Source: a virus. From it: 35,054 nt of DNA. The translations under genes and the position numbers were made by a program. A model generated the notes under the pieces. The model made no database searches and had not been told where the DNA came from. It saw nothing but the letters and a program-made list of their open reading frames with translations. Positions 22,501 through 35,054 of the stretch are shown in pieces. Position 1 is the first letter of the stretch. Each line of letters starts with the position of its first letter. The stretch is taken from IMG/VR virus record IMGVR_UViG_3300031885_000068, positions 1 through 35,054 of that record. One strand, written 5' to 3'.

Positions 22501-22502
22501 AA

Positions 22503-22919: not shown

Positions 22920-22947
22920 AGATTCTCTGCCAAGTCAACATGCTTTA

Positions 22948-23172: not shown

Positions 23173-23228
23173 TTACCACCCCGCCCGTTTTGGAAACCTG
23201 GCTTTATCCAGTTGCTCCCGTTGTGCAT
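23169..23228 (-). CDS. Possible 19-aa peptide between coupled genes
   Basis: ATG at 23228 follows GGTGGAGTAAT at the end of the upstream gene. It encodes MHNGSNWIKPGFQNGRGGK and ends at a TGA overlapping the GTG start of the downstream gene. The overlap arrangement matches the other junctions in this genome. Its shortness leaves real translation uncertain. Confidence 0.3.
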   Translation of the reverse strand: MHNGSNWIKPGFQNGRGGK

Positions 23229-23229
23229 A

Positions 23230-23808: not shown

Positions 23809-23809
23809 T

Positions 23810-24091
23810 TTAAACCTCCGTTACTTTGACTTTTTTAATTTCGATATGCCTACCTCTCATTTTCCACATATTTGCAAAACGCTGTAGGGGATCAAACGCA
23901 ATGAGCTGGCCATTGTCGATCACCGCCCACATAGTCCAGCTTCGTTTTTTCTTAGATAATTTCGGTACAGTTACCATCGTCTGTGTTGGGATACTAGTTT
24001 TTATAGAAGCAAGGGAAACATTATCCGGTGCCCACCGGTCCTCAAAGTCGAGCAATCGTTTTGCTGTTGAGTGTTTACTTTTCTTTTTCAC
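23810..24091 (-). CDS. Small basic unknown protein
   Basis: The protein has 93 residues, starting at GTG with MKKKSKHSTAKRLLDFEDRW. The start lies 17 bases inside the upstream gene. Strongly basic at the N-terminus and C-terminus (RGRHIEIKKVKVTEV), with an aromatic core (SWTMWAVIDNGQLIAFDPLQ). The first 16 bases after the first base of the start codon are identical to those of the gene before it, which marks a repeated gene-junction sequence. Function unknown. Confidence 0.5.
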   Translation of the reverse strand: MKKKSKHSTAKRLLDFEDRWAPDNVSLASIKTSIPTQTMVTVPKLSKKKRSWTMWAVIDNGQLIAFDPLQRFANMWKMRGRHIEIKKVKVTEV

Positions 24092-24365
24092 TTATTCTTT
24101 TCCCCGATAAAATCTCTGCTTCTTCTTTGGAGCCGCCGCGGTTCTCGCTTGAGATGCCGTGTTTGTGGCGAAGCGCTAATACTGACAGATCATCTTCTTC
24201 AAGAAAACAGTGCCCGCACCACGGACAAAAAGAGATCAAAGGTAGGCCCGTGCCAATACGTTGCCCGTTGCTCCAGACTACTGCCCCGTACCCCTCGTTA
24301 TCAGTGCCGCTACATCCAGCTCGATAAAAGTTCTCACAGCAACAATTATTACTTTTCTTTTTCAT
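24075..24365 (-). CDS. Small Cys-rich protein with zinc-ribbon-like motif
   Basis: The protein has 96 residues from MKKKSNNCCCENFYRAGCSG. Cys residues at about 8, 9, 10 and 18 pair with CPWCGHC at 47-53, suggesting a zinc ribbon or a four-Cys zinc site. The second half is charged (ALRHKHGISSENRGGSKEEA). The ATG lies within the closing codons of the upstream gene (17-base overlap). It may bind nucleic acid or a host protein; this is inferred only from the Cys pattern. Confidence 0.55.
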   Translation of the reverse strand: MKKKSNNCCCENFYRAGCSGTDNEGYGAVVWSNGQRIGTGLPLISFCPWCGHCFLEEDDLSVLALRHKHGISSENRGGSKEEAEILSGKRISEKEK

Positions 24366-24579
24366 CTTCCTCAATCTTGGTTAGCGCGCACAACAATTCC
24401 CGCGATGCTGGGGAGTAGACAGTTGCGCATCGAACATTCCCGTCCATCCACTCTAGAGCATATTTTGCACCTGCTTTAAATGCCCCTCTGGTTGTAGTTT
24501 GTGGGACATCCAGGCCAAACTCTGCTTCGATTTTCGCTATCCAATCGTTAGCCGCTTTTTCCAGCTCACTTTTTCTCAT
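24349..24579 (-). CDS. Paralogue B of a small duplicated early protein
   Basis: The protein has 76 residues from MRKSELEKAANDW. The start was chosen because the sequence aligns with the neighbouring gene from its own first residue: KSELEKAA against KSELEKTA, FKAGAKYALEWM against FQAGARWALEWV, and an IEEDEKEK end against IEEDEKK. The frame is open further upstream but those codons lie in the neighbour. Tandem duplication is the simplest origin. The A-G-A-K/R-x-A-L-E-W segment is a conserved helix. Function unknown. Confidence 0.6.
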   Translation of the reverse strand: MRKSELEKAANDWIAKIEAEFGLDVPQTTTRGAFKAGAKYALEWMDGNVRCATVYSPASRELLCALTKIEEDEKEK

Positions 24580-24829
24580 CTTCCTCAATCTCCAAATCTT
24601 TAGACTCAATGCTTCGAATGTCCACATTCTCGCCGTAGCCGTAGCTCTCTTCCTGCACCCACTCCAGCGCCCACCTTGCGCCTGCTTGGAATGATTTAAC
24701 ATTGTCTGGGTTAGGGTGTTTGATCCCCGTCAGTAGTGGGCCAACACTCCCGACTACAGCATCGTACATTACCAAGTTGTTATCAAAGCAAAATTCTCTA
24801 GCCGTTTTTTCGAGTTCAGATTTTTTCAC
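24566..24829 (-). CDS. Paralogue A of a small duplicated early protein
   Basis: The protein has 87 residues, starting at GTG 24829 (AAGGAATCCTGTG) and overlapping the upstream gene by 14 bases. The opening MKKSELEKTAREFCFDNNL, the FQAGARWALEWVQEE helix and the IEEDEKK end match the following gene (paralogue B). It has an extra NPDNVKS-type loop. The duplication and the conserved A-L-E-W core suggest two versions of the same factor, perhaps varying in target. No known family is recognised. Confidence 0.6.
   Translation of the reverse strand: MKKSELEKTAREFCFDNNLVMYDAVVGSVGPLLTGIKHPNPDNVKSFQAGARWALEWVQEESYGYGENVDIRSIESKDLEIEEDEKK
24576..24591. repeat. Gene-junction repeat (copy of 24362-24377)
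   Basis: TCATCTTCCTCAATCT occurs at 24576-24591 and at 24362-24377, 214 bases apart. Both copies cover the end of one gene (coding IEEDE) and the ATG of the next. A second 16-base identity, TGAAAAAGAAAAGTAA on the minus strand, occurs at 24364-24349 and 24090-24075, again over stop/start junctions. The repeats flank whole genes, as expected after tandem duplication or junction-directed exchange. Confidence 0.7.
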
Positions 24830-25166
24830 AGGATTCCTTTTTTGAAAGCATATCGACAACGCCTTGCACTAAAATTAAATCGCTATCAGCTAAACTGGCT
24901 ATCCTCGCCGCTATCGCTTCTCTCTTGTTTAGCTTCCGCACCTTTTCATGCGGCTTTGGCACTTCTTCATAGCGTAGATTTCGCCCCTCCGCTCTAGTAA
25001 GCCGATATTCTCTGCAAGACATCTCGATCATGTCGCACTCATCAAGTGATTTGTCGAAGCAATTATCAGGAATAATTAACTCTCGATAGATTACCGGGCG
25101 CGCTTCATCCGTTTGGATTTCTTTTGTGCAATTATCTGCTGTGATAAGCCGGGCGTTAAATTTCAC
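24816..25166 (-). CDS. Unknown early protein
   Basis: The protein has 116 residues from GTG at 25166 (GGGGTGGTAGTG; the stop of the upstream gene overlaps as TAGTG). A beta-rich start MKFNARLITADN is followed by Cys/Asp-containing PDNCFDKSLDECDMIEMSC and a charged helical C-terminus (KLNKREAIAARIASLADSDLIL). No recognisable domain. It is part of the string of overlapping early genes. Confidence 0.5.
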   Translation of the reverse strand: MKFNARLITADNCTKEIQTDEARPVIYRELIIPDNCFDKSLDECDMIEMSCREYRLTRAEGRNLRYEEVPKPHEKVRKLNKREAIAARIASLADSDLILVQGVVDMLSKKESCEKI

Positions 25167-25456
25167 TACCACCCCTTTTGTCGTCTTGGCAGTTTCTCGC
25201 TTGAAAGATCATCGATAAATTCCTTGTGCGGTAAGCCTTCGACTTTATTTTTTTGTACATCCAAGCAGTACAGATCTAAATACCTGTTAATTAGATCTGG
25301 ATTCTCCTTGAGCATGTTTGTTAAAATTCTAGCAGTACGCGCTTGGAATTCTTTGGACGCGTTACACTCCCAATAACGTAATCCTGATAGTGCCATCACA
25401 GCAGCGATGTCGTACTGTCGAGTTTTAAATTCTTTAGGAACGTGAAAATCTGTCAT
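25166..25456 (-). CDS. Unknown early protein
   Basis: The protein has 96 residues. The start ATG at 25456 overlaps the stop of the 43-residue membrane protein (ATGA) and is preceded by a GAGGGG site. It opens MTDFHVPKEFKTRQYDIAAVM, then has mixed helices (FQARTARILTNMLKENPDL). It ends in basic LPRRQKGW. No motif recognised. Confidence 0.5.
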   Translation of the reverse strand: MTDFHVPKEFKTRQYDIAAVMALSGLRYWECNASKEFQARTARILTNMLKENPDLINRYLDLYCLDVQKNKVEGLPHKEFIDDLSSEKLPRRQKGW

Positions 25457-25584
25457 AACCCCTCTGTTTCCTCTTCTTCTAATTGCCAATTAAAAATCAT
25501 GTTCTCTTCAGTGAGCTGAAGCGCCCACCAAAAAGCCAGTAACAAAATCGCCATGCTAATTATTAGGTAAATTATCTTTTTCAT
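25453..25584 (-). CDS. 43-aa single-pass membrane microprotein
   Basis: ATG at 25584 overlaps the stop of the PLA2-like gene (ATGA), and its own stop at 25453 overlaps the next ATG. The product opens with a hydrophobic helix (KKIIYLIISMAILLLAFWWA, residues 2-21), followed by an acidic tail (EEEETEGL). This two-sided coupling supports real translation. It would sit in the inner membrane with the acidic tail on one side. Possible role with the adjacent PLA2-like protein; function unknown. Confidence 0.6.
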   Translation of the reverse strand: MKKIIYLIISMAILLLAFWWALQLTEENMIFNWQLEEEETEGL

Positions 25585-25901
25585 TGCTTACCCCAAGGCC
25601 AGCTAAAAATAGATTTGCCAGCAAATCGTCCGATGCCGTAGATCCGCGCGCATCTGTAATACACCAGTGCTCTTGCTTTTAAAAACGGATCACCATTAGC
25701 AAGTTCCAAGCAATTGACCAGAAGCTCTCTATCAATTTCCTTTGTTGACTCCCACGGCTTTAGATCCAAATATTGCTGATCGTGAATTATACAGGCTGGA
25801 AAAAACACATCACAGGTGCCGGTGTTTAGCCAGCCCGGCAATCCGCACTCGTAATCTTGAGGCTTGCCCGCTATTGTAATTTCTTTTAATCGCTTATTCA
25901 T
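25581..25901 (-). CDS. Phospholipase A2-like protein
   Basis: The protein has 106 residues. The motif GTCDVFFPACIIHDQQYLD (residues 28-46) carries the C-x-x-H-D-x-x-Y signature of the PLA2 active site, with the catalytic pair His40-Asp41. A second Asp at about 57 and a Cys at 64 (EIDRELLVNC) follow at the spacing seen in this superfamily. The rest is helical. No signal peptide is visible. Phages carry small proteins of this kind with no settled role. It is followed, with an ATGA overlap, by a membrane microprotein, which may hint at a membrane task. Confidence 0.6.
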   Translation of the reverse strand: MNKRLKEITIAGKPQDYECGLPGWLNTGTCDVFFPACIIHDQQYLDLKPWESTKEIDRELLVNCLELANGDPFLKARALVYYRCARIYGIGRFAGKSIFSWPWGKQ

Positions 25902-26166
25902 TCTCTACCTTTTTGTCTTTATACAAAACACACCCAAAGTCTGGCCTAACCTTCATAGGATCATCCACAAAATCTAACTGGCAGTCTATTCTTTCAAATA
26001 TTTTTATGCAAAAATGCCAATCGCTGGGGTCGCCCAAGTTAAAAGGCTCGGATGCGTAAACACAAGTTTGACAAAATGGTCGAAGCAGCCTTTTTAAATC
26101 ACCTGCAATTGCCTTGGCCTCTGCCAAGATATGTTCTTCAATTGCTACAGCATCTTGATCAGGCAC
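25894..26166 (-). CDS. Cys-containing early protein
   Basis: The protein has 90 residues from GTG 26166, with GGAGG five bases ahead (CGGAGGTAAGAGTG) and overlap with the upstream stop. Residues about 30-80 hold Cys at RPFCQTCVYAS, WHFCIKIF, RIDCQ and FGCVLY, suggesting metal binding. The N-terminus is acidic and helical. No family named. Part of the overlapping early string. Confidence 0.5.
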   Translation of the reverse strand: MPDQDAVAIEEHILAEAKAIAGDLKRLLRPFCQTCVYASEPFNLGDPSDWHFCIKIFERIDCQLDFVDDPMKVRPDFGCVLYKDKKVENE

Positions 26167-26410
26167 TCTTACCTCCGTTAATTACTGAGAGTTCAGTGCC
26201 TGGTATTTTTTCGGATTCTTCGGGCAAGCAAATCGCATTTATAATTGCATTAGATACGCCCGTTGCCATAAAATCCTTTTGCGCTTGTATGTGTTTTGTA
26301 AGCTTAACCAATTCGACTAAAGCCGTATGTGCTTCAACGCTTCTACCTAAACCACTCTGGATCACATTAGACAAAGCATCGATAAGTTGATTTGTGATTT
26401 GCCTGTTCAT
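26159..26410 (-). CDS. Small helical early protein
   Basis: The protein has 83 residues, with SD AAAGGAAAT before ATG. It overlaps the previous gene's 3' end by 44 bases. Helical and moderately hydrophobic (LIDALSNVIQSGLGRSVEAHTALVELVKLTKHIQ), with a Gly/Ser C-terminus (GTELSVINGGKSA). No recognisable motif; unknown function. Confidence 0.5.
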   Translation of the reverse strand: MNRQITNQLIDALSNVIQSGLGRSVEAHTALVELVKLTKHIQAQKDFMATGVSNAIINAICLPEESEKIPGTELSVINGGKSA

Positions 26411-26615
26411 ATATTTCCTTTCTTTTATATAATTCCCGTAAAAATCCTTTATAGTCTAATCCAAGCATTTCAAATATTTCTTTTGCCCAAAGAGATCTAA
26501 AAAACTCCCAGTCTTTATCTCCGATTGCTTGTTTAATTGTAGCAACCCAAAGCTGCTGTTCTGCTGTTCCTGACGCTGCGCAATCTTGATCGAAATTTAT
26601 GCAAAAATTTGTCAT
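26367..26615 (-). CDS. Small early protein
   Basis: The protein has 82 residues from ATG 26615, which follows GAGGCGGAACAA just after the nuclease gene stop (the frame is open a few codons further). Mixed charged and aromatic (DWEFFRSLWAKEIFEMLGLDYKGFLRELYKRKEIYEQ). No domain recognised. Overlaps the following gene by 44 bases. Confidence 0.5.
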   Translation of the reverse strand: MTNFCINFDQDCAASGTAEQQLWVATIKQAIGDKDWEFFRSLWAKEIFEMLGLDYKGFLRELYKRKEIYEQANHKSTYRCFV

Positions 26616-26626
26616 TTGTTCCGCCT

Positions 26627-26938
26627 CTACCAAATTAATGGATGTTTCAACTCGCCTTTCTCTAATTCGTAGCCCATGCCTCGTAAAACCTCCTCAGTGG
26701 TTGTCGCCACTATGATTTTTTTCCCTGTCCAAGTTCGAACAAACTGCCGCTGCCGCGCGTTCAGAGACGCGGTTGGCATTTTCACTTCCACTAAGTAGAT
26801 CTGTGATAAATCCGAAACCAGCAGATCCGGGCACCCCTTCCCCACAAGATGCAGATCCAAAACACACATCCCCAGCTTCCGAAGTTCCTTCATTATTTTC
26901 GATTGATTCGCATCCGTCCGTTTTTTCCAAAATCCCAT
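26627..26938 (-). CDS. VRR-NUC type nuclease (PD-(D/E)xK)
   Basis: The protein has 103 residues from MGFWKKRTDANQSKI. KGCPDLLVSDLSQIYLVEVK holds the PD...ExK nuclease signature (P37-D38, E51, K53). LNARQRQFVRTW follows, the usual VRR-NUC signature end. VRR-NUC proteins are small structure-selective nucleases of phages. It may process recombination or replication intermediates with the Bet protein, and it is the only nuclease of this kind found. The gene lies almost wholly within the 3' part of the upstream HTH gene in another frame (245 bases shared). Confidence 0.75.
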   Translation of the reverse strand: MGFWKKRTDANQSKIMKELRKLGMCVLDLHLVGKGCPDLLVSDLSQIYLVEVKMPTASLNARQRQFVRTWTGKKIIVATTTEEVLRGMGYELEKGELKHPLIW

Positions 26939-27242
26939 ATCGTTTCGCCTTTTCAAAAAGTGTAGTCCGTTTTAGTCCGAGTGCCCTAGCTGCCTTGCTC
27001 ATGTTGTAATCAGCCAAACCGAGGGCGCTACTAAGCAAATGAATTTCAAATAGTGCTACTGAATCGTCGAATTTCTCGGAGTAAAAGCTCCTTTTAATTT
27101 GAGCGAGTTCCTCTCTGGCGGTAACTCCTTCCAGAAGCATGTCCATAACTATCTCAGCTTTTTCGATCGATTCGCAAAGGCAAATTGGGATATCGCCGCA
27201 CTGTATCCAGGCTCTACCGCCCTCTTGAGGGATCACTCTCAC
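26694..27242 (-). CDS. Fis-type helix-turn-helix protein
   Basis: The protein has 182 residues. Residues about 60-105 carry a Fis/NtrC C-terminal HTH: LFEIHLLSSALGLADYNMSK, then AARALGLKRTTLFEKAKRYGI. The N-terminus has a small module (IQCGDIPICLCESIEKAE). After residue about 105 the protein is Gly/Ser/Glu-rich and low complexity, exactly where its DNA is also coding for the VRR-NUC gene in another frame. Either the tail is a by-product of the overlap or a frameshift exists. Likely DNA-binding regulator; target unknown. Confidence 0.6.
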   Translation of the reverse strand: MRVIPQEGGRAWIQCGDIPICLCESIEKAEIVMDMLLEGVTAREELAQIKRSFYSEKFDDSVALFEIHLLSSALGLADYNMSKAARALGLKRTTLFEKAKRYGILEKTDGCESIENNEGTSEAGDVCFGSASCGEGVPGSAGFGFITDLLSGSENANRVSERAAAAVCSNLDREKNHSGDNH

Positions 27243-27475
27243 TGCATCACCTCATCATTGTAAGCAAAGGTTTTTTTTCCAATAGCATAGCGCACTAGTT
27301 TTAAAAAGTTTGCCATACACCGCGCCCAGACTTTTTTTCTATCAGCAAATTCGTTTTCGGACTCGCCTTCTAAAACTTCAATGCCACACGATAGCCTAGC
27401 TAGCATGTCGGCCTCAATTTCTTTTAAAACTTCAGTGTCAATTTTATTTAGCTGATCTGTGATTTTAAGCGGCAT
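27239..27475 (-). CDS. Small unknown early protein
   Basis: The protein has 78 residues. The ATG overlaps the end of the upstream gene by 11 bases, and its stop overlaps the HTH gene start. Helical and charged (LNKIDTEVLKEIEADMLARL, NEFADRKKVWARCMANFLKLV). No recognised motif. Confidence 0.5.
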   Translation of the reverse strand: MPLKITDQLNKIDTEVLKEIEADMLARLSCGIEVLEGESENEFADRKKVWARCMANFLKLVRYAIGKKTFAYNDEVMQ

Positions 27476-27806
27476 GTTTTAGCTCCTTTAATGCAAAAGC
27501 ATCTTTGTGCTCAGGGAATTTGAGGATAAATAAACGGGCATAGAGCGCCGTGTAGTTGTTATTGAGTTTGAACTCTTGTTTCGTAAATAAATCCTGCTTA
27601 AATCCTCCGCCCTGATCCCATCGCAGTTGCTCAAATAGTCCCTTTGCTCCCATTTTTCTACGGCCACCACGAATGGCACTGAGCGCGCACTCCTCAAATG
27701 CCTTCCATACCCAAATATTTTCTGTGTGATATTTAACAAAATCCGTAACATTTTCATAAGTCCCACCCATCCTGATTAAACCATTGATAGCATCACGCTG
27801 GTTCAT
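27465..27806 (-). CDS. Conserved phage protein of unknown function
   Basis: The protein has 113 residues. The layout WVWKAFEECALSAIRGGRRKMGAKGL, then LRWDQGG, and FKLNNNYTALYARLFILKFP matches a phage family I recall by pattern (helix, F-x-x-x-A-L, then I/L-R-W, then F-K-I/L-N-N-N, then Y-A-R-x-F), whose function is unassigned. It overlaps the upstream gene by ATG/stop. Possibly linked to replication given its neighbours. Confidence 0.55.
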   Translation of the reverse strand: MNQRDAINGLIRMGGTYENVTDFVKYHTENIWVWKAFEECALSAIRGGRRKMGAKGLFEQLRWDQGGGFKQDLFTKQEFKLNNNYTALYARLFILKFPEHKDAFALKELKHAA

Positions 27807-28030
27807 AATGTCCGACTCGCGGCTAAATAGATATTTTGCAACCGTTGAAAATATCCTGCTTCCAAAGTCCTTTTTGCGGTATCCATAATTTTCAACTTTT
27901 CAGCCTCTATCGTTGTCTCCATCTCCTCAGTCAAGGATTTTTGGTTTTCGTACCACTGTCGGCGATTCTCCAAGTCCATTAACAACTGAAACGCCTGGTA
28001 GTGCGGTAGCCTCGTTATTTTTTCGATCAT
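27803..28030 (-). CDS. Small helical protein overlapping the loader-like gene
   Basis: The protein has about 75 residues if it starts at ATG 28030 (GATGATCGAAAAAATAACG-type start with a poor ribosome site). A shorter form starting at ATG 27922, directly after GAGGAG, would have 39 residues. The longer form opens MIEKITRLPHYQAFQLLMDL and continues with charged coiled-coil-like helices (EEMETTIEAEKLKIMDTA). It overlaps the last 100 bases of the loader-like gene in another frame. No family recognised; start uncertain. Confidence 0.4.
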   Translation of the reverse strand: MIEKITRLPHYQAFQLLMDLENRRQWYENQKSLTEEMETTIEAEKLKIMDTAKRTLEAGYFQRLQNIYLAASRTL

Positions 28031-28523
28031 TTCCAATTGCACCAAATATCCCTCCAATTATTTTTTTTGCAGACTCAGAATCGATTTCCATTAAATCGTC
28101 TTCAATCGATTCCTTTTTAATTAGATCATTATAAATTTGAATAAAATCGCGGCGGACAAAATCAAGCTGAGCGTAGTCCGTAAAAGAGATTCGCTGCATC
28201 CCGGTTAATTTTGCCGCACGCAATACAAGGGGAAAGTCTTTTAAGTGCTGATCCAAAATTCTAAAATTTTCAGAAGCGGCAACCGCATAGTCCCAAGCCT
28301 CCTGAGCTGTCATTTTTCCAACCAATAAAGCGTTTTTGACATCGCCAGGCGTTGGAAACTTTCCACTATTTTTTATGGCCGTCAACATCGCCGTTCGAAA
28401 AACCTTAGCTTCGGTTTTAGAAAACATCCGAAACCAGCTATCCACATTGTTGGTTTCAAGTTTATACTGCGGGAAAAAACCATAAGCCTCGCCCAATATG
28501 AGCGCGCACTCTGATCGGTTCAT
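27927..28523 (-). CDS. Helicase-loader-like replication protein
   Basis: The protein has 198 residues from MNRSECALILGEAYGFFPQY, chosen since its ATG overlaps the stop of the replisome organiser gene (ATGA) with a GAGGG site before it. The opening matches the loader/inhibitor fold of phage helicase loaders: VDSWFRMFS, AMLTAIKNSGKFPTPGDV (residues about 50-65), W-x-x-A. Like SPP1 gp39/G39P-type proteins, it probably binds the host replicative helicase and brings it to the origin organiser encoded just upstream. No P-loop ATPase is seen, unlike DnaC-type loaders. Confidence 0.6.
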   Translation of the reverse strand: MNRSECALILGEAYGFFPQYKLETNNVDSWFRMFSKTEAKVFRTAMLTAIKNSGKFPTPGDVKNALLVGKMTAQEAWDYAVAASENFRILDQHLKDFPLVLRAAKLTGMQRISFTDYAQLDFVRRDFIQIYNDLIKKESIEDDLMEIDSESAKKIIGGIFGAIGNDRKNNEATALPGVSVVNGLGESPTVVRKPKILD

Positions 28524-29404
28524 ATTACGCCCTCTTCCTTTAAAATTTGGTTGACCGTTTCCACAGTTCCAGCCGTTCCCCATTTAGAGGATCCGCCGCC
28601 GTTGCGCCGAATCGTAGCAAATGAACGCTTAAGCCAGTTGCGCATAAAGGCCGCTGCATCCTTGTGTGATTTTCCTTTGCTCAGAGTCCAGTCTGAGGCT
28701 ATTTGTATCTGCTCTTTTAGGTATTTTTCATCTTGAGTGTTTGCGACACAAAGGTTGATTAGGGCTTTATACTCATCAGGACACATCCTAATCCGAGGAG
28801 CAAACGTTTCTTTGAGATCGTTAATCGGATAATTACTAGGGTTAGCCGGGTCGTTAATCGACCCGGTATGCTTTTCTATACTATCCTTTCCTATACTATC
28901 CTTTAATATAATATGTGTATTTATCCCCGGATTAACTACCATTAATTCCGGATTAACCTCCGGTTTTTCCAGGATTAACTCGGGTAAATCCGGAAGATTG
29001 AAAAAGTCGAGTTTTTCGGGCAGTGGAACGAGCAAAAACTCGCGTTGGACTGTCACTTGAGTACGATCTTTAGCGGCAAAGAAAAATCGGTTTTGTATCC
29101 CCTGCGAGGTTAATATTTTGTATTCTGAATAGAGTTTATCGTCGAAGAACCCCCAGTTAATGGCAGATTTAACCACATTATCCACCTGAGAAACGGCTAT
29201 TCCGCACCGCTTTGCCATCAAAGCCGACTCTTTAGCGGTCCAAGGATACCAATATCCGTTTGAATAGATTTTCATTAGCAGTTTAATAACTACCCCCCAG
29301 CCAACTATGCCGTGTTCGCCTTCTATGAGTTGAATTTTATCGTCAGAATCCGCGGTAATGTCAAGATTGAAATAATCTAATCCTTGTTTGATTGGTCTAG
29401 CCAT
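28520..29404 (-). CDS. Replisome organiser (Lin1244/Lin1753-type N-terminus)
   Basis: The protein has 294 residues. Residues 1-115 follow the phage replisome organiser N-terminal domain: MARPIKQGLDYFNLDITAD, then IVGWGVVIKLLMKIYSNGYWYPW, then ALMAKRCG and VDNVVKSAINWGFFD, a winged-helix type DNA-binding fold. Residues about 135-195 are low complexity and coincide with DNA repeats (VNPELMVVNPGINTH, KDSIGKDSIEK). The C-terminal WLKRSFATIRRNGG is basic. It likely binds the origin and recruits the loader encoded next. The lambda O gene has the same order: DNA-binding domain, iterons, partner-binding domain. It starts via a TAATG overlap. Confidence 0.72.
   Translation of the reverse strand: MARPIKQGLDYFNLDITADSDDKIQLIEGEHGIVGWGVVIKLLMKIYSNGYWYPWTAKESALMAKRCGIAVSQVDNVVKSAINWGFFDDKLYSEYKILTSQGIQNRFFFAAKDRTQVTVQREFLLVPLPEKLDFFNLPDLPELILEKPEVNPELMVVNPGINTHIILKDSIGKDSIEKHTGSINDPANPSNYPINDLKETFAPRIRMCPDEYKALINLCVANTQDEKYLKEQIQIASDWTLSKGKSHKDAAAFMRNWLKRSFATIRRNGGGSSKWGTAGTVETVNQILKEEGVI
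28818..28995. repeat. Iteron-like repeat block inside the replisome organiser gene (candidate replication origin)
   Basis: The block contains the following. (1) TCGTTAATCG at 28818-28827 and 28851-28860. (2) A perfect 8-bp inverted repeat CCGGGTCG/CGACCCGG around TTAAT at 28846-28866. (3) Tandem 15-base units CTATACTATCCTTTC, with cores at 28876-28889 and 28891-28904. (4) An AT-rich stretch at about 28902-28924. (5) Three GGATTAAC elements at 28929, 28950 and 28972, spaced 21 and 22 bases. Direct repeats beside an AT-rich segment within an initiator gene is the classical layout of the lambda-type origin. Origin function is inferred, not shown. Confidence 0.6.
28846..28866. repeat. Perfect inverted repeat within the candidate origin
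   Basis: CCGGGTCG at 28846-28853 pairs with CGACCCGG at 28859-28866, with loop TTAAT. It lies between the two TCGTTAATCG elements and the AT-rich segment and has no adjacent T-run, so it is unlikely to be a terminator. It could extrude or form an initiator-binding site. Confidence 0.7.
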
Positions 29405-29694
29405 TATGCGTTACTCCTTGCATAATGACCGCGATTTTGGTATCTTTTGGTTGTGGTCATCTTTGCTAATCCCAAAGTTGGCCGCGCTAAAAGCTGGAAG
29501 AAATTCCGGCTTTTTTTGTCGGCGTGTTTCCAAATTAATTTAGCACCTCGCACGTAGGCTTGCAACAAAAATCTAGTAAGTAATTCACCTAGTCGCATAT
29601 AAAACAGTGTTATTTTAATTACAAAAGGGGAGCTATCCCCGTTCAAAAACGAAAATTGATAGCTCCCAAACGAGTCAACAGTGTTACTTTTCAT
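29404..29694 (-). CDS. Small basic early protein
   Basis: The protein has 96 residues if it starts at ATG 29694, overlapping the lipoprotein stop by 11 bases. A 64-residue form MRLGELLTRFLLQ starts at ATG 29598, after the hairpin-operator region described separately; neither start has a strong ribosome site. The C-terminal part is basic (KKSRNFFQLLARPTLGLAKM, TTTKRYQNRGHYARSNA). Its stop overlaps the replisome organiser ATG (TAATG), supporting translation of this frame. No family recognised. Confidence 0.45.
   Translation of the reverse strand: MKSNTVDSFGSYQFSFLNGDSSPFVIKITLFYMRLGELLTRFLLQAYVRGAKLIWKHADKKSRNFFQLLARPTLGLAKMTTTKRYQNRGHYARSNA
29603..29685. promoter_or_regulatory. Structured promoter region with two AACAGTGTT palindromes and a nested hairpin
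   Basis: Palindromes AACAGTGTT (odd palindrome, centre G) occur at 29603-29611 and 29677-29685. Between them, GGGAGCTATC at 29628-29637 pairs perfectly with GATAGCTCCC at 29658-29667, and CGTT/AACG at 29640-29651 forms an inner stem. On the minus strand TTGAAC (29646-29641), 17 bases, then TGTAAT (29623-29618) resembles a sigma70 promoter, whose start would fall at the left palindrome. The design suggests a repressible promoter for the replication genes, but this is inference. Confidence 0.5.
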
Positions 29695-29926
29695 AATTGC
29701 GCCAAATTTCCTCTGCTGCCCTATTCTGTAGGGGCAGGCTTTGCCCCTGGCTTGTAGCTAAATCGATGCCTGCGGACTGGATAGAGCTGCTAGAGCTGTT
29801 CTTTGACCAAGTACTGGTCGTTTTTGAACCAGCCTCTAAAGAGTCAATCGATAATGTCATAGTGCAAGCATTCAAAATAATTCCGAGTAACCCTAAAATT
29901 AAAACGATAACCAATTTTATAACCAT
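29684..29926 (-). CDS. Predicted lipoprotein
   Basis: The protein has 80 residues from MVIKLVIVLILGLLGIILNA, chosen since GAGGTTTTATGG places the ribosome site correctly (the frame is open 14 codons further). The hydrophobic signal ends in the lipobox LNAC (Cys21), then a short Ser/Thr/Gln-rich mature part (SKNSSSSSIQSAG, then QSLPLQNRAAEEIWRNYEK). It would be anchored in the membrane and act at the envelope. Neighbouring a small membrane protein in the early region, it could be a superinfection or envelope-modifying protein rather than a spanin; no match found. Confidence 0.65.
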   Translation of the reverse strand: MVIKLVIVLILGLLGIILNACTMTLSIDSLEAGSKTTSTWSKNSSSSSIQSAGIDLATSQGQSLPLQNRAAEEIWRNYEK

Positions 29927-29939
29927 AAAACCTCTTAAA

Positions 29940-30092
29940 TTATAAACCAAAAAAGAAAACCTGAGCATCTCTTACTGCTGGCAGAATCCCACGCACTAGC
30001 AGATCTAAAAATCCGTTAATGCAAAGATAAGTCACCAGCAAAAAACCAACCCAAGAAAATACGCCTGGCATTTTTTCCATTAATGCGTTCAT
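29940..30092 (-). CDS. 50-aa membrane microprotein
   Basis: ATG at 30092 follows GTGAGGTTTTT, a good ribosome site, giving MNALMEKMPGVFSWVGFLLV and TYLCINGFLDLLVRGILPAV as hydrophobic segments and ending VFFFGL. The frame is open to an ATG at 30164 but that lies within a hairpin and has no ribosome site. A single long membrane helix or a hairpin of two short ones is likely. Function unknown. The stop is followed 13 bases later by the lipoprotein start. Confidence 0.6.
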   Translation of the reverse strand: MNALMEKMPGVFSWVGFLLVTYLCINGFLDLLVRGILPAVRDAQVFFFGL

Positions 30093-30162
30093 AAAAACCT
30101 CACAGTAAAAATAACCTAAAACAGAGTCTAAACCCTGTGCTGCTGGCCTGATTGTCGGCAGC

Positions 30163-30180
30163 ATCGGGCTTATGCCCGAT
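30163..30180. repeat. Short hairpin in the gap upstream of the membrane microprotein
   Basis: ATCGGGC at 30163-30169 pairs with GCCCGAT at 30174-30180. There is no T-run on either side, so it is not a clear terminator. It lies in the 90-base gap between the 50-aa basic protein and the 50-aa membrane protein, where it could stabilise or attenuate the mRNA. Confidence 0.45.
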
Positions 30181-30182
30181 AT

Positions 30183-30335
30183 TTATCGCGATAAACTACG
30201 CAAAACCACCTCTAAGTCACGCCGCCGCCGGATCTGAGCGCCTTTGAGAGGCCGCTGCTGCCGAAGTCGCATTAGTTCCCCGCTGAGTTTTACATACAAA
30301 GATCTCGCCACAAGTTCGGAATTATATGTTTTCAT
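30183..30335 (-). CDS. 50-aa basic protein coupled to the double-HTH gene
   Basis: ATG at 30335 overlaps the stop of the upstream gene (ATGA, site GGCAGG before it) and the frame closes at TAA 30183. The product is basic (MKTYNSELVARSLYVKLSGE, LMRLRQQRPLKGAQIRRRRD), compatible with nucleic-acid binding. The exact stop/start coupling supports translation even though it is short. No named family. Confidence 0.6.
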   Translation of the reverse strand: MKTYNSELVARSLYVKLSGELMRLRQQRPLKGAQIRRRRDLEVVLRSLSR

Positions 30336-30850
30336 TTTGACCTGCCACCTGAAATAGTTTCGTTGTCACCTAATATTGAGAACTCCATATCAGCATCCAA
30401 TTCATTCCCAAATTCAATAAGCTTACTTTTCATCTCTGCGTCAAATTTGTGCGCATCGTCTTTAGAACGCAAAGCAGCTAGTACGGCATCGGAATCAAAT
30501 CGATACCGCCCACCCATTTTGATCGCTGGTATCCGTCCAGATCTAGCCCAATTTAACATGCAGGCGTCAGAAAACGAAAACATCCTGCCCAGCGTTGCCG
30601 CGTCAACATATTTAACACCGACGCGCCTTGGCAAAATTGTTGGTAGTTTTATTTCAGGCTCGGTTCTTGGATTATCTGTAATCCACTGGTGGACTTCCTT
30701 CTCCTCACATAAGATCATCCCTTCAATAATATCGTCATAAAATTTAGGGCCGATATCTTCCCCATTTTTCTGCCGAATCCGCCATGCATATACAACCTTG
30801 TCACTAAGCCCTACAAGCTTGGCAACATCTTTGACTCTCAAATAACCCAT
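30332..30850 (-). CDS. Double helix-turn-helix (MerR/excisionase-type) protein
   Basis: The protein has 172 residues from MGYLRVKDVAKLVGLS, with the site GGAG six bases ahead (TATGGAGAAAATATG); the frame stays open 8 codons further. Two HTH_17-like domains: residues 1-57 (YLRVKDVAKLVGLSDKVVYAW) and about 80-130 (YVDAATLGRMFSFSDACMLNW, then GRIPAIKMGGRYRFD). Such proteins bind two half-sites and are excisionases, regulators or origin-binding factors. No integrase is present, so a regulator is more likely. Target unknown. Confidence 0.65.
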   Translation of the reverse strand: MGYLRVKDVAKLVGLSDKVVYAWRIRQKNGEDIGPKFYDDIIEGMILCEEKEVHQWITDNPRTEPEIKLPTILPRRVGVKYVDAATLGRMFSFSDACMLNWARSGRIPAIKMGGRYRFDSDAVLAALRSKDDAHKFDAEMKSKLIEFGNELDADMEFSILGDNETISGGRSK

Positions 30851-30874
30851 ATTTTCTCCATAAATAAAAAACAA

Positions 30875-30980
30875 ACAAAATGGATGCGACCTAATATGCT
30901 ATTGCCCTAGGCGGCTATTGCTGTTCAGCGGCATCCAATGACGGCCATAAATGGCCGCCAATGCAGACCGATTCCACGCA
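30875..30980. other. Intergenic gap with short inverted repeat
   Basis: The gap between the Bet gene and the double-HTH gene holds CGGCCAT/ATGGCCG at 30942-30957 (7-bp arms, loop AA) and two copies of GCAATAGC on the minus strand. No consensus promoter or T-tailed terminator is visible. It could contain a binding site for the double-HTH protein, whose gene is immediately downstream. Confidence 0.35.
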
Positions 30981-31940
30981 TTACTGATTACGTTGTAAAT
31001 GCTGGAGTTCCTCCGCCTCAAATTTTGGTTCTTTCTGGCTATCGTAAACGCCAGACGAGTCTAGGATGTCGCGCTGCGCGTCAAACTCAGCGTCGGCCCC
31101 TACTACAGCCGCCTTGCCTTCCCTTTGCGCTTTGGGAGGCGTTCGGTTGTTAAACTCGTATGCTGATATTTCGAGGTTTTTAAGCTTCGGATGCGTCTTA
31201 TAGCCCATATAAGCATCATGCTGGACAATGTAAGTTAACCCTAGTTGCATCATTAGCCGCTGTGCCGCTTCTGGTTTTTTAGCCTTATCTAGCGCAAAGT
31301 AATGAGACTTGTTTTGGTCCTCGCTCTCTTCAACTGTTGACCCCGGAAACGACTGTAAAATCGGCTTTGGGACTTCAACCTTGGCCTCTACCGGCTTGGT
31401 TTCAACTAATTCAAATCGTGGCTCCCCTGCCCCGTTCTCTTGGTATTCGGCGGGCATTTCCTCCTTAGTGTAAAGGCCGCCCAGCTCCTGCGGAAACGCT
31501 TTTCTAAGCGCTAAACTCTCAGCGCACTTGCTTAGCATCAGCCTCGGCATGGTTTTCCAATTGCCATACTGCTTGGCATATTCCGAGAAGTAGGCTTCTG
31601 CTACGGTAGGCCGTGATCGGTCTTTCCTGTAAGCTTTAGCAATCACCTTAACCAGCTTTCCGGATTCCTCTATCGTCTCAACTTCCAGCCCGTCAAATTG
31701 CGGATGACTGTTAGCGATGGCATAATAGCCGTTGACTCCCGTCATCATTTGCACCTGGCCGTTTTGGGTTTTAATAAACCAGATTTCACGTTTGAAAGGG
31801 TTTAGCCCGGTGCTCTGCGCAATGCCTGCAAACATTGCAAACTCGGCATCCGTAGCACCCTTAGCAACAGTTTCTTTCAGCGTCTTAATTGTCGCCGGAT
31901 TTGTGTAATCTAATTTAATTGTAAGATTTTTGTCAGTCAT
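30981..31940 (-). CDS. bet: Bet/RecT-family single-strand annealing protein
   Basis: The protein has 319 residues. The family core is clear: GLNPFKREIWFIKTQNGQVQ at 45-64, then TGVNGYYAIANSHPQFDGLE at 67-86, and MPRLMLSKCAESLALRKAFP. It promotes annealing of complementary strands for recombination and concatemer formation. Residues about 175-319 form an extra C-terminal region of polar, Glu/Lys-rich sequence, longer than lambda Bet (261 aa). No lambda-type exonuclease gene is recognised; the VRR-NUC protein is the nearest candidate partner. The ATG follows AAAGGTGAATT, 18 bases after the upstream stop. Confidence 0.85.
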   Translation of the reverse strand: MTDKNLTIKLDYTNPATIKTLKETVAKGATDAEFAMFAGIAQSTGLNPFKREIWFIKTQNGQVQMMTGVNGYYAIANSHPQFDGLEVETIEESGKLVKVIAKAYRKDRSRPTVAEAYFSEYAKQYGNWKTMPRLMLSKCAESLALRKAFPQELGGLYTKEEMPAEYQENGAGEPRFELVETKPVEAKVEVPKPILQSFPGSTVEESEDQNKSHYFALDKAKKPEAAQRLMMQLGLTYIVQHDAYMGYKTHPKLKNLEISAYEFNNRTPPKAQREGKAAVVGADAEFDAQRDILDSSGVYDSQKEPKFEAEELQHLQRNQ

Positions 31941-31957
31941 AATTCACCTTTTATTTT

Positions 31958-32206
31958 TTAAAAACAGCAAACGGCTTGACGCTTAGTTGTACCATCTGGC
32001 AGCGCCAAAATATAAATCGTATCAAAACTGCACTGATCATCATTACCATTAGTGCAGGCGTCAGATTGATATTTTTTAAGTTCCTGCGGCTCCCCAGTTT
32101 TTTTTGCTAGCTCAAAAATCAACGCGACCCTTGCCGCCTCCTTGTCAACTTTCGATTTTAGCCCCTCAAGTTTTTCGATTGTTATATAAGCTGCTTTTTT
32201 ATCCAT
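31958..32206 (-). CDS. First gene of the early operon, unknown
   Basis: The protein has 82 residues, with ATG preceded by the site GAGGAAACAGT. The N-terminus is helical (AAYITIEKLEGLKSKVDKEA, then ARVALIFELAKKTG). The C-terminus has Cys (SDACTNGNDDQCSF, AVCCF). It is the first gene after the early promoter, so it may act on the host or on transcription. No known family. Confidence 0.5.
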   Translation of the reverse strand: MDKKAAYITIEKLEGLKSKVDKEAARVALIFELAKKTGEPQELKKYQSDACTNGNDDQCSFDTIYILALPDGTTKRQAVCCF

Positions 32207-32230
32207 ACTGTTTCCTCGTTTTAAAATAGA

Positions 32231-32259
32231 TTGACAAGGTGTCTTGTCTCTGTTATCAT
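32231..32259 (+). promoter_or_regulatory. Sigma70 promoter for the XRE operon
   Basis: TTGACA (32231-32236), 17-base spacer, TATCAT (32254-32259): close to consensus. The start would lie near 32266, giving a 74-base leader to the 32340 ATG. Its -35 box is inside the palindromic operator, so autorepression is expected. Confidence 0.65.
32233..32248. promoter_or_regulatory. Palindromic operator over the plus-strand promoter
   Basis: GACAAG-GTGT-CTTGTC is a perfect 6-bp inverted repeat with a 4-base spacer. It overlaps the -35 box of the plus-strand promoter (TTGACA, 32231-32236). A CTTGTC half-site also overlaps the -35 of the minus-strand early promoter (32282-32287). This is likely the operator of the XRE repressor encoded at 32340. 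Confidence 0.6.
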
Positions 32260-32260
32260 T

Positions 32261-32289
32261 AGATTAGATCAGTCGACGAATCTTGTCAA
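32261..32289 (-). promoter_or_regulatory. Early promoter of the minus-strand operon
   Basis: On the minus strand, TTGACA (32289-32284), 17 bases, TAATCT (32266-32261). Start near 32254, about 48 bases before the 32206 ATG. It faces the plus-strand promoter: the two -10 boxes lie side by side, so RNA polymerase cannot use both at once. The -10 is weaker than consensus. Confidence 0.5.
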
Positions 32290-32339
32290 CATATCTTTAT
32301 AGACTAGGCGCATTTATTTAGCTAGAATGGCATAACGCT

Positions 32340-32546
32340 ATGAATTGTTTAAAGAATTTAAGAAAAAAACTAGGTTTTACTTTCAACGAAATGGGAGCAA
32401 AAACAGGCATTTTGCCACAAACTTTGTGGGCTATCGAAGCTAAAAAGTATAATTTTAGCCTTTCAACTTTAATCAAGTTAAAGCAAAGTTTAAAACTAGA
32501 TTGGAGTGAATTAGGGAAGATGATAGAAGAGGAATTTAAGGAATAA
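32340..32546 (+). CDS. XRE-family repressor (HTH)
   Basis: The protein has 68 residues and is an HTH of the lambda Cro/XRE class: KKLGFTFNEMGAKTGILPQT, then LWAIEAKKYNFSLSTLIKLK. The HTH covers nearly the whole protein, with an acidic end EEEFKE. It is one of only two plus-strand genes. It should bind the operator in the divergent/face-to-face region and switch the early operon off. No cleavable (CI-type) C-terminal domain is present. Confidence 0.7.
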   Translation: MNCLKNLRKKLGFTFNEMGAKTGILPQTLWAIEAKKYNFSLSTLIKLKQSLKLDWSELGKMIEEEFKE

Positions 32547-32547
32547 A

Positions 32548-32802
32548 ATGACAACAAACATATACGGCGGAGAGCTGAGCGAAACATTAAAAGACGCGGT
32601 ATCCCGGCTAAGCCAAAAGCCGCTTAATACTTGGAAAGTAGCAGAACCATTACGAACTGCAGCGGCGCTTGTAGAATGCCGCGATCCCAGAATCGACGGC
32701 ATCATTAAGGACGTGGGAGAAAAGGAGCTGGCGCATATGATGGCTGCGATCTTTTTGGGCCTGCTAGACCGGATCAACACGTTCTCAGAAACTGGATTTT
32801 AG
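32548..32802 (+). CDS. Unknown protein in the repressor operon
   Basis: The protein has 84 residues, SD AAGGAATAAAATG, one base after the repressor stop. Helical with MTTNIYGGELSETLKDAVSR and a C-terminal ELAHMMAAIFLGLLDRINTF. No family recognised. Co-expressed with the XRE protein, so a modulator of it is plausible. Its 3' end overlaps the end of the convergent lipoprotein gene by 4 bases. Confidence 0.5.
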   Translation: MTTNIYGGELSETLKDAVSRLSQKPLNTWKVAEPLRTAAALVECRDPRIDGIIKDVGEKELAHMMAAIFLGLLDRINTFSETGF

Positions 32803-32999
32803 TGGCCGAACGTTACGTTGACGCGCTGGCTGCCCATAGCTCCGGTAGTTTTGTAATTCCCATAAGGATGAGGATATTTTTGAACATGCCACTCTGGCTC
32901 TTGGCCTGGCAACCAAGCTTTTTGATCTCGGTTCCAATATTGTGGCTGCGGCATACAAGCAGACAGGCAAACGACAATAAGTAGTGTTAGTATTTTCAT
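32799..32999 (-). CDS. Small lipoprotein with its own promoter (possible superinfection-exclusion protein)
   Basis: The protein has 66 residues. Signal peptide MKILTLLIVVCLSAC ends in lipobox LSAC with Cys15. The mature part is short and aromatic/Pro-rich (MPQPQYWNRDQKAWLPGQEP, then YPHPYGNYKTTG). SD AAGGGGTGAG is excellent. It is separated from the lysis genes by a terminator and has its own sigma70 promoter, a moron-like arrangement. T5 Llp-type lipoproteins of similar size mask receptors on infected cells; an outer-membrane spanin is the alternative. Function inferred. Confidence 0.65.
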   Translation of the reverse strand: MKILTLLIVVCLSACMPQPQYWNRDQKAWLPGQEPEWHVQKYPHPYGNYKTTGAMGSQRVNVTFGH

Positions 33000-33017
33000 A
33001 ACTCACCCCTTTAGCTG

Positions 33018-33046
33018 ATTATACACCCTACCCTACTTTTACTCAA
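33018..33046 (-). promoter_or_regulatory. Promoter of the lipoprotein gene
   Basis: On the minus strand, TTGAGT (33046-33041), 17 bases, TATAAT (33023-33018). The -10 is a perfect consensus, followed by the AAGGGGTGAG ribosome site and the ATG at 32999. Start near 33011, leader about 12 bases. Likely constitutive. Confidence 0.75.
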
Positions 33047-33109
33047 GATAATAAATAGTATCTAAGCTATTGATATTGCTATGCTTATCCTGCCGGCATT
33101 TTGGGCAAC

Positions 33110-33143
33110 AAAAAAGCGGATAGCCTGGTCAGAGGCTATCCGC
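33110..33143 (-). terminator. Intrinsic terminator after the lysis genes
   Basis: GCGGATAGCC at 33116-33125 pairs with GGCTATCCGC at 33134-33143 (10 bp, loop 8). On the minus strand it is followed by TTTTTT (33115-33110). It lies 25 bases after the endolysin-holin stop and should end the late transcript there. Confidence 0.88.
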
Positions 33144-33167
33144 GAAAAGAGGTAAGATCGTTTATTT

Positions 33168-33398
33168 TTATGGAAGAATCTGTTTTTGCGCAATCCGTTT
33201 TTCTACCAAACTCCAGCCTTGGGCGATTAGGTATAGCAATACTGCAATTAAAATCTGAGTTGTGCCGTCGGTCCACTGGTTAACCAGCGTAGGGTCTAAT
33301 CCGATCCCAACTAGCACGCCAGCTAGCAATGTCATTAGTTTTCGAATTACGCTTTTCCCAACACTTCCAAGTATCCACTGCTTAATTTTTTCAATCAT
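33168..33398 (-). CDS. Holin reading frame with its own start (inside the fusion)
   Basis: ATG at 33398 follows GGGGG by 9 bases, so independent initiation is plausible and would give a 76-residue holin: MIEKIKQWILGSVGK, two membrane segments (about residues 25-40 and 48-65) and a basic end. The pattern resembles small phage holins of the Pam3-gp28 type. It would let the enzyme cross the inner membrane. It is the in-frame 3' part of the endolysin-holin reading frame. Confidence 0.5.
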   Translation of the reverse strand: MIEKIKQWILGSVGKSVIRKLMTLLAGVLVGIGLDPTLVNQWTDGTTQILIAVLLYLIAQGWSLVEKRIAQKQILP

Positions 33399-33881
33399 GT
33401 TTTTTTTCCCCCAAAGATTAACTTCATCAAATTTATCGAGCATTGCTTCAATGCCATTGATCTGATTTCTTCGCTGATTACCGTATCCGCTTGCATGTCG
33501 CTCCAGGACCCGCGTAACGTAGTTTGCTGTTTCTTCGGGGACGTGAAGTTGATAATAGTCCCAAGTCTGGCCAGGATATTTTTCCAGAAGTTTTTTAACA
33601 TTTCCCATTCCCCAGTTATAGGCGGCTAGTGCAAGTTCGGTAGTTTCAAACATGTTTAGCAAGTGCGCTAGATAGGCCGAACCAATTTTGACATTTTGCT
33701 CTGTGTCGAATGGATCGTAAGGCTCTTTGATTTTAAGCTTAGCCCACCATTCCCGCCCGGTTGCAGGCATTAGCTGCATCAGCCCACAAGCCCCTACAGG
33801 GCTTTCAGCTTGCGGATTGAACGCGCTTTCGACAGATATCACAGCCCTAACCAGTCTGCGAAAACTATCCGATTCAAACAT
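33168..33881 (-). CDS. Endolysin (SLT lytic transglycosylase) fused in frame to a holin-like membrane domain
   Basis: The protein has 237 residues. Residues 1-140 are an SLT domain: catalytic Glu18 in AVISVESAFNPQAE, GLMQLMPATG at 33-42, and AYNWGMGNV near 86-94. It has no signal peptide. Residues about 162-237 look like a small phage holin: MIEKIKQWILGSVGKSVIRK, then a short membrane helix LMTLLAGVLVGIGL and ILIAVLLYLIAQGWSLVEKR. The join lies at GGGGGAAAAAAAAC before an internal ATG (33398). One A fewer would end the enzyme at TGA overlapping that ATG. Real fusion, slippage site or sequencing indel are all possible. Confidence 0.75.
   Translation of the reverse strand: MFESDSFRRLVRAVISVESAFNPQAESPVGACGLMQLMPATGREWWAKLKIKEPYDPFDTEQNVKIGSAYLAHLLNMFETTELALAAYNWGMGNVKKLLEKYPGQTWDYYQLHVPEETANYVTRVLERHASGYGNQRRNQINGIEAMLDKFDEVNLWGKKNMIEKIKQWILGSVGKSVIRKLMTLLAGVLVGIGLDPTLVNQWTDGTTQILIAVLLYLIAQGWSLVEKRIAQKQILP
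33398..33415 (-). other. G5A8 homopolymer junction between endolysin and holin domains
   Basis: On the minus strand the sequence is TGG GGG AAA AAA AAC ATG in the endolysin frame. It contains A AAA AAC in the correct phase for -1 slippage. A -1 shift would add H-D and stop, giving an enzyme without the holin part. Loss of one A from the DNA or mRNA gives GGG AAA AAA ACA TGA, a stop overlapping the holin ATG as ATGA. Confidence 0.6.
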
Positions 33882-34128
33882 GTTTAATCACTGCCCAAAT
33901 AACACTAACTGCTACCGAAATAAGCACCCCTATTTTCGCGAGAGACTCAGCCCTTCCAAAATTAGAGGCTTTTTCATGTTCATGTTGGCGAAGTAAGCAC
34001 ATGTCTTTGGTCACAAAACGCTCATGGAGATCGCACCTAAGCTCGTTCATAGCGCTAGTTAAATACTCCACTCTTTCCGAGATTCTAATTAGAAGTTCCT
34101 CGTTTGTTTTGTGCGTTGCTTCTAACAT
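33874..34128 (-). CDS. Small protein with C-terminal membrane anchor in the lysis block
   Basis: The protein has 84 residues from ATG 34128 (a TTG at 34143, directly after the upstream stop, would add 5 residues). The N-terminal 55 residues are a charged helix (ELLIRISERVEYLTSAMNEL, then RCDLHERFVTKD), followed by a C-terminal membrane segment (AKIGVLISVAVSVIWAVIKH). This is the layout of XhlA-type lysis accessory proteins. The stop overlaps the endolysin start by 8 bases. Confidence 0.55.
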   Translation of the reverse strand: MLEATHKTNEELLIRISERVEYLTSAMNELRCDLHERFVTKDMCLLRQHEHEKASNFGRAESLAKIGVLISVAVSVIWAVIKHV

Positions 34129-34143
34129 TGCACTATCCAGCAA

Positions 34144-35054
34144 TTACACTTGGGCATTATTGATAACAATCCAATTGCTAGCGGATACGCATTTAAAAAG
34201 CCCCCCAGATTGTTCATGAAGATAGACGTAGTCGTTAGTACTGCGAGGCCAGATAGATCCTCCGCTCTCAGGGTATATCTTTAGCCAGGCTGCTCCAGCG
34301 TTGCTGTTACTAATATAAATTTCTCGCCCAACAATTGTTGTGGCTGGTAGGATTAATCCGCTGTCATTGGCCCCTGTAGCATTAACAAACTGCTTACTGA
34401 TAGCGGTCGCAGTCCCCTGTGTAGTCCCCGCTCCAACCGGCGATTCTACGCCAGTCCCGTCCTGAATGCCCTGCGTGTAGATTGAAGCAACCCTATGAGT
34501 TGAGTCGCCAATATATTGTGTTAAGTCCGCTGCGGGGACTAATTGAAGATTAATAGTCCAAGTGTTTTGGGTTAATAAAATGAAATTGGTTCCATCATAG
34601 ATGACATCTTGAACGCATCCAGCCCTCACTTCCCCAGCCGCTAAGTCTGCCGCTGGAAATGCCTTGATCGTCTTAGCGCCCAAACTGTTAACGTTTAGCG
34701 TTGTAATTCCCGAGTTGGTATATCCAGCTAAAAACGCAAAACGTTGTCCAGCTACATAGGCACTTGGGGCTATCGTAACACTAATGGCGTGGGTATTAGC
34801 CGATCCCGTTGAAGTGCCGCCCCAGAGCAAGGTGCTGTTAACTACCTGCGTAGCGCTAACTGAGTCGGTCAAAGCCGATCCAGTAGTTAGCCCGGTTAAT
34901 TTCTTGCTATTCATCGGCAAATTAGCGCTTGGGCTATTCTGCCCATCCCGCGCTACGCAGTTTTCAATAGCATTGCAGACCGTAGTAAACATCGTATCAA
35001 ACGCGGTCTGATCCGGCGCCGTTTGTTGACTGCATTGGTTGTCAGACGGAACGT
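34144..35054 (-). CDS. Tail fibre protein, main part (N-terminus at 184-1 across the junction)
   Basis: This is the rest of the roughly 320-residue fibre protein; in this copy it is open at the right window edge. Features: NLPMNSKKLTGLTTGSALTD near the start, the repeat-type AYVAGQRFAFLAGYTNSGIT, and LNVNSLGAKTIKAFPAADLA, AGCVQDVIYDGTNFILL, all typical of phage fibre shafts (y-x-x-G...NtG-x-T-L-N-v-n...yDGt-x-F). The C-terminal beta domain (GREIYISNSNAGAAWLKIYP) ends SNWIVINNAQV. It follows the ejection protein and precedes the lysis genes. Probably one of two fibres with the 15259-16707 product. Confidence 0.75.
   Translation of the reverse strand, partial: VPSDNQCSQQTAPDQTAFDTMFTTVCNAIENCVARDGQNSPSANLPMNSKKLTGLTTGSALTDSVSATQVVNSTLLWGGTSTGSANTHAISVTIAPSAYVAGQRFAFLAGYTNSGITTLNVNSLGAKTIKAFPAADLAAGEVRAGCVQDVIYDGTNFILLTQNTWTINLQLVPAADLTQYIGDSTHRVASIYTQGIQDGTGVESPVGAGTTQGTATAISKQFVNATGANDSGLILPATTIVGREIYISNSNAGAAWLKIYPESGGSIWPRSTNDYVYLHEQSGGLFKCVSASNWIVINNAQV
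34923..35054. repeat. Right copy of the 132-bp terminal direct repeat
   Basis: Matches bases 1-132 with one mismatch (34928 C; position 6 T). Perfect identity runs 126 bases from 34929 to the end. The right copy encodes Ser and the left Asn at the same codon of the fibre. Confidence 0.93.

Follow-up and report, generated by a model that had tools for sequence, protein, structure and literature searches.

The C proteins of restriction-modification systems are small regulators that time the expression of neighbouring genes, and their operators lie upstream for activation. According to the P2 GenBank record and PMC7498355, phage P2 (Pe/Pc, with C and Cox) and likewise phage 186 (pR/pL) have opposed promoters between a divergent gene for a small HTH repressor and an early operon. 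The P2 -10 boxes (25907-25912 and 25962-25967) are about 50 bp apart, so that the P2 RNAs overlap and run through each other, and an integrase gene stands beside C. The "bidirectional promoters" of bacteria (Warman/Grainger), as defined in PMC10268837, start RNAs in divergent directions from points 7-25 bp apart on a single core and usually show symmetry of the -10 alone, the second RNA often being non-coding. The locus described here, 59 bases at 32231-32289 of a 35,054-base stretch of viral DNA analysed as a whole ("the window"), resembles P2 and 186 in having predicted opposed promoters between a small HTH regulator gene (xre) and an early operon. It is read, with fair though far from complete confidence, as a repressor-controlled bidirectional promoter, at which the XRE protein would act as repressor of its own gene and of the early operon, so that early transcription would be limited or ended.

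The window is an entire IMG/VR record, the ends of which carry a 126-base repeat (7-132 and 34929-35054), so that it is probably a complete phage genome. A megablast of 20001-35054 against the phage collection revealed no near DNA relative, and a capsid query found no relative; by TerL, the nearest named records are Pseudanabaena phage Pam5 (41% identity), in which two genes annotated as "C repressor" stand divergent to each other, and Bacteriophage sp. ctMlz233 (40%), with no member of the window's XRE subfamily found in either. Nearly all of the window's genes lie on the minus strand (judged by eye from the ORF list), the clearest plus-strand ones being xre (32340-32546) and the 84-aa ORF directly 3' of it (32548-32802; no Pfam or PHROG match), which probably belongs to the same operon. 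A terminator-like hairpin is seen on the plus strand at 32900-32917, some 100 bases past this operon.

The product of xre is a 68-aa single-domain HTH_3 regulator (25.9 bits against a Pfam gathering cut-off of 23), and by eye no clear Shine-Dalgarno sequence precedes its gene. Its fold model (pLDDT 84.7, five helices) is closest to the controller proteins C.BclI and C.Esp1396I, whose single-domain five-helix XRE fold it appears to resemble (TM 0.78-0.84, at Foldseek E values of about 0.01-0.05, with no fold match at E 0.001), and its sequence profiles reach HipB and C proteins. The putative operator covers the -35 of xre itself instead of forming an upstream activating site, as in C proteins, and no restriction enzyme gene was noticed beside xre, an ORF fusing a ParB_N domain to a methyltransferase domain (21266-22465) being 10 kb off. 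Elsewhere in the window, a 106-aa ORF (25581-25901) shows, by eye, a phospholipase A2-like Cys/His-Asp stretch, with no Pfam match.

On the minus strand, the first early gene (31958-32206; 82 aa, ribosome site GAGGA) has its ATG at 32206, leaving 133 bases between it and the xre ATG at 32340; a match of 14 residues between the 82-aa query and loci L002 and L003 was taken as chance. It is followed by genes for a RecT ssDNA-annealing protein (30981-31940; PF03837, E 4.3e-36), a protein with two HTH_17 (excisionase/Cox-type) domains (30332-30874; Pfam, with PHROG matches to excisionase/regulator families) and, further into the early block, a replication initiator (Lin1244_N domain match; 28520-29404).

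The predicted xre promoter, Pxre (32231-32259, plus strand), consists of TTGACA (32231-32236) and TATCAT (32254-32259) at a spacing of 17, with a TG extension one base upstream of the -10 and a start at about 32266; it has 11 of the 12 consensus letters and is the top match of the promoter scan of the 20-35 kb part. The predicted early promoter, Pearly (32261-32289, minus strand), consists of TTGACA (32289-32284) and TAATCT (32266-32261), again 17 apart, with a start at about 32254. Scored with a log-odds matrix of E. coli frequencies, which may not suit the sigma factor of the phage's host, Pxre (15.0) ranks first and Pearly (11.1) third among the 35,049 positions of their respective strands. 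Over a 2.5-kb stretch of P2 the same matrix gave the annotated Pe the top rank on its strand (11.8) but the annotated Pc only 5.6, and thus misses some real promoters. As a superimposed pair the two score 26.0, which none of 1000 dinucleotide-shuffled versions of the intergenic sequence reached, and 32231-32289 is the best opposed pair of the 35-kb genome (runner-up 19.2), whereas the window's back-to-back pair, tried as an alternative, reached 19.4. Both the pair score and the permitted gap between the -10 boxes (-6 to +10) were set after the site had been seen, which makes the same statistic applied to relatives the stronger test. The opposed pair does fail a simple scan that requires four of six letters, since the -10 of Pearly shares just three with TATAAT.

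The earlier note on this DNA had proposed two opposed promoters sharing the same 59 bases, with xre read one way and the early genes the other; both points are supported by the sequence. Its term "face-to-face" holds for the promoters alone: the predicted starts, 12 bp apart, are directed outward, so the RNAs run apart and would not collide. With a single base between the -10 boxes, one polymerase should exclude the other. It is here that the likeness to P2 becomes incomplete, as P2 has its -10 boxes about 50 bp apart and RNAs running through each other where the window has 1 bp and predicted divergence; the window has predicted opposed promoters and no detectable integrase gene, convergent overlapping RNAs are not predicted for it, and its HTH_17 pair is a candidate counterpart of Cox. 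The predicted spacing of 12 bp, and of 21 bp in each of the two closest relatives (G005 and G007, introduced below), lies within the 7-25 bp range, and the geometry predicted from these letters fits the bidirectional-promoter definition, as given in PMC10268837, better than it fits the P2 pair. Compared with the usual members of that class, however, as characterized there, the window would have a good -35 in both directions, genes in both directions, and a regulator's operators overlapping both promoters.

One could argue that only Pxre is real, the minus-strand TTGACA being an operator half-site that happens to resemble a -35 and the early operon being driven from elsewhere. The poor -10 of Pearly, with its failure in the simple scan, would suit such a reading, as would the fact that TTGACAAG doubles as an operator word, confounding -35 and operator letters; yet Pearly still ranks third on its strand, the 82-aa gene with its good ribosome site begins 48 bp past the predicted start, and both G005 and G007 have, in other letters, an early promoter that is oriented alike and ranks first on its strand, which leaves this reading improbable.

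Two putative operators lie over the promoter pair, within a long inverted symmetry, TTGACAAG ... CTTGTCAA, that occupies 32231-32289 and is centred at 32260. O1 (32233-32248) is a perfect palindrome, GACAAG-GTGT-CTTGTC, containing part of the Pxre -35 just as had been noted earlier, and by its coordinates it spans -33 to -18 of Pxre and +7 to +22 of Pearly. O2 (32272-32287) is an imperfect palindrome, GTCGAC-GAAT-CTTGTC, with three mismatches to O1; it includes the CTTGTC half-site that had been pointed out at the Pearly -35, and spans the same positions with the promoters exchanged (-33 to -18 of Pearly, +7 to +22 of Pxre). The P2 operators O1 and O2 differ from these palindromes in being two 8-bp sites arranged as direct repeats. 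O1 is the sole exact match of its pattern in the window; with up to three mismatches allowed there are nine matches against a mean of 12.2 expected. Chance thus accounts for the number of such loose matches, and the palindrome by itself counts for little as evidence. Of the four exact occurrences of TTGACAAG or its complement in the window, three fall within 32141-32289. The third copy of the word in these 149 bases is an exact CTTGTCAA at 32141-32148, inside the first early gene, which may be an auxiliary site or chance.

Instead of being an operator, the O1 palindrome might work at the RNA level, the early mRNA beginning with a hairpin that serves attenuation or stability. The early leader does fold into an O1 hairpin (-7.1 kcal/mol), but the fold is not unusual (z -1.31; 22 of 200 shuffles are as stable), it has no Rfam match, and the repeated words of the relatives, TTCAGTATAC, sit on promoter elements, so that a role of this kind seems very improbable.

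The stronger test requires relatives, and these were gathered with a RecT profile, which collected 52 viral loci, 40 of them with at least 3.5 kb of upstream DNA present. Of the 52, 20 have an XRE-profile member, which in every case lies upstream of recT on the other strand. As the XRE profile was built with the members it found, a leave-one-out check was made, in which all 16 distinct rows were recovered (E 1e-25 to 5e-5). The window's XRE protein used alone as a query gave none in viral_contigs and only weak matches in phages (E 0.04 or worse), a profile of the window's XRE with those of L011 and L013 found no member beyond these two, and the 80 further loci collected with a TerL profile gave three weak XRE matches at E<=0.01 (the best being L130, 1.5e-4) and no match to the window's recT. 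The closest XREs are those of L011 (35% identity) and L013 (32%), whose records are G005 (36,961 bases) and G007 (37,459 bases), respectively; these two also have counterparts of the window's portal, capsid and tail genes, encode TerL proteins 44% and 40% identical to its own, and likewise carry end repeats. In both (L011:3234-3923 and L013:3962-4684, minus strand) the XRE domain forms the C-terminal third of a longer ORF of 229 or 240 aa with Cys pairs, an internal Met of which aligns with the XRE start of the window; to the eye the N-terminal part resembled HNH, but HTH was all that Pfam gave, and the idea of HNH-XRE fusions was dropped.

At the xre/early junction, G005 has TTGCCT-17-TATACT (early) and TTGACT-17-TATACT (xre), and G007 has TTGACG-18-TATACT (early) and TTGCAA-17-TATACT (xre), all four ranking first on their strand by the log-odds matrix; the -10 elements overlap by 4 bp in both, compared with the 1-bp gap in the window. 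The top opposed pair of either genome is the one at this junction (24.7 in G005, next 17.3; 23.9 in G007, next 15.1). The shuffle test covered 15 of the 17 listed switch regions (all but L005 and L007; of near-identical loci the others were not entered), and for G005 and G007, as for the window, no shuffle out of 1000 was as good, which also applied to L044 (20.7), a possible further case of the superimposed form. Values were marginal for L017 (0.006), L014 (0.043), L029 (0.049) and L016 (0.050), the remaining 7 of the 15 were unremarkable for this geometry, and L008 and L014 fit ordinary back-to-back promoters better. Most of the 20 recT-divergent XRE loci thus do not clearly share the superimposed form, which, as predicted from these scores, belongs to the window's own clade and is not universal.

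The words over the promoters differ between these genomes. TCAGTATAC is confined to the switch region of G005 (three places, both strands counted) and G007 (two places), being absent from the rest of both genomes and from the window, and the two switch regions have a 12-mer in common, a shared word of that length occurring in 1 of 1000 random pairs. The palindromic operator of G005 and G007, AGTATACT, favours both -10 boxes at once, so that only the -35 boxes of these relatives count as independent evidence for the promoters. Operators fall on the -35 boxes in the window but cover the -10 boxes in these two relatives, so that details of the mechanism may not be the same. What is presumably the recognition-helix region is alike in G005 and G007 (QTYYY, QSYYY) and unlike that of the window (QTLWA), and L014 and L016 (TPRGYR), two closely related loci, have TATGATAC-4-GTATCATA at the same place. 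Such co-variation of operator and helix is what binding of XRE to these words would lead one to expect. A search of viral_contigs for the exact two-arm operator pattern gave no match.

Operon layout varies as well: in G005, xre heads the terminase-side (packaging-gene) operon (G005:12421-14756), whereas G007 and the window have it as a short separate unit. In L014, L016 and L023, too, genes of terminase type (small terminase, judged by eye) follow xre in the same direction. That the circuit is retained while the layout changes speaks for xre/early control as its central function, and an xre leading a packaging operon (in G005 and, by eye, several others) agrees with a timed shut-off of the early genes no less well than with lysogeny.

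Under the favoured reading of a repressor-controlled bidirectional promoter, a single 59-bp stretch would accept RNA polymerase in either of two orientations, giving either the RNA from about 32266 for XRE or that from about 32254 for the RecT/replication early operon. XRE, presumably as a dimer, would occupy O1 first, covering its own -35 and the +7 to +22 stretch of Pearly, and would then fill the weaker O2 in the mirrored position, so as to repress itself and, while accumulating, the early operon. Activation of Pearly by XRE at O1 was considered and is sterically unlikely, as O1 lies at +7 to +22 of that promoter. In a phage with no integrase, the likeliest role would be to set a ceiling on early transcription and later end it, a possible added one being to block a second infecting copy.

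A lysis/lysogeny switch of P2 type operating without integration, in which XRE would be the immunity repressor (like P2 C), the double HTH_17 protein the opposing repressor (like Cox/Apl), and the outcome a bistable carrier state, appears rather unlikely, although P2 does have opposed promoters between C and cox, the early operon encodes the double HTH_17 protein with its excisionase/regulator matches (which makes it a candidate opposing regulator), and L004, which has a subfamily XRE, encodes an integrase. The L004 XRE, however, is the weakest family member (E 5e-5), no HTH_17 match was found in G005 or G007, xre leads packaging-gene operons in G005 and other relatives, and integrase, resolvase and ParA are all absent from the window. 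Moreover, O1-bound XRE should silence its own promoter, as a self-sustaining repressor would not; with both operators expected to silence both promoters, negative feedback and early shut-off are favoured over self-sustaining lysogeny.

A regulated bidirectional promoter serving as a phage early switch was not found reported in a limited search of open papers. If the reading is true, the locus would be a very compact natural regulated two-way promoter, with one core, two exclusive outputs and one small repressor; it would test whether phages decide or time events by the way in which polymerase is oriented on a shared core, connect phage control circuits with the bidirectional promoters described recently, and show what a CI/Cro-type regulator does in phages seemingly unable to integrate. 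A wider and decidedly tentative proposal is that phages of one clade without integrase have fused early and regulator promoters and their operators into one regulated two-way promoter, keeping its geometry while operator and recognition helix co-change, as a stand-alone infection timer or an immunity device for a non-integrated carrier state, retained across operon layouts.

As to the carrier state, the absence of an integrase proposed in the earlier note was confirmed for this end-repeat-bearing record, neither PF00589 nor PF00239 being found in it; among the 28 records searched, PF00589 occurs in four (G005 and G007 not being among them) and PF00239 in none. The bistability, pseudolysogeny or plasmid-like state suggested in the same place found no support, ParA (AAA_31) being absent from all 28 records, the window included, and the replication protein giving partial matches, in 14 records. 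The portal query had one match in the plasmid collection, in a Burkholderia cenocepacia replicon of 3.2 Mb that contains related virion genes; this replicon was rejected as support for a plasmid-like state, as it holds no clear member of the XRE subfamily (best E 0.018). A RecT profile search of genome_contigs gave 48 loci at no more than 38% identity, and thus no prophage of the window's clade was seen there. An unannotated prophage-like region, L195 (NZ_CP091013.1 1671178-1712920), the portal and capsid proteins of which are 32-34% identical to those of the window, lies in a Burkholderia cenocepacia replicon.
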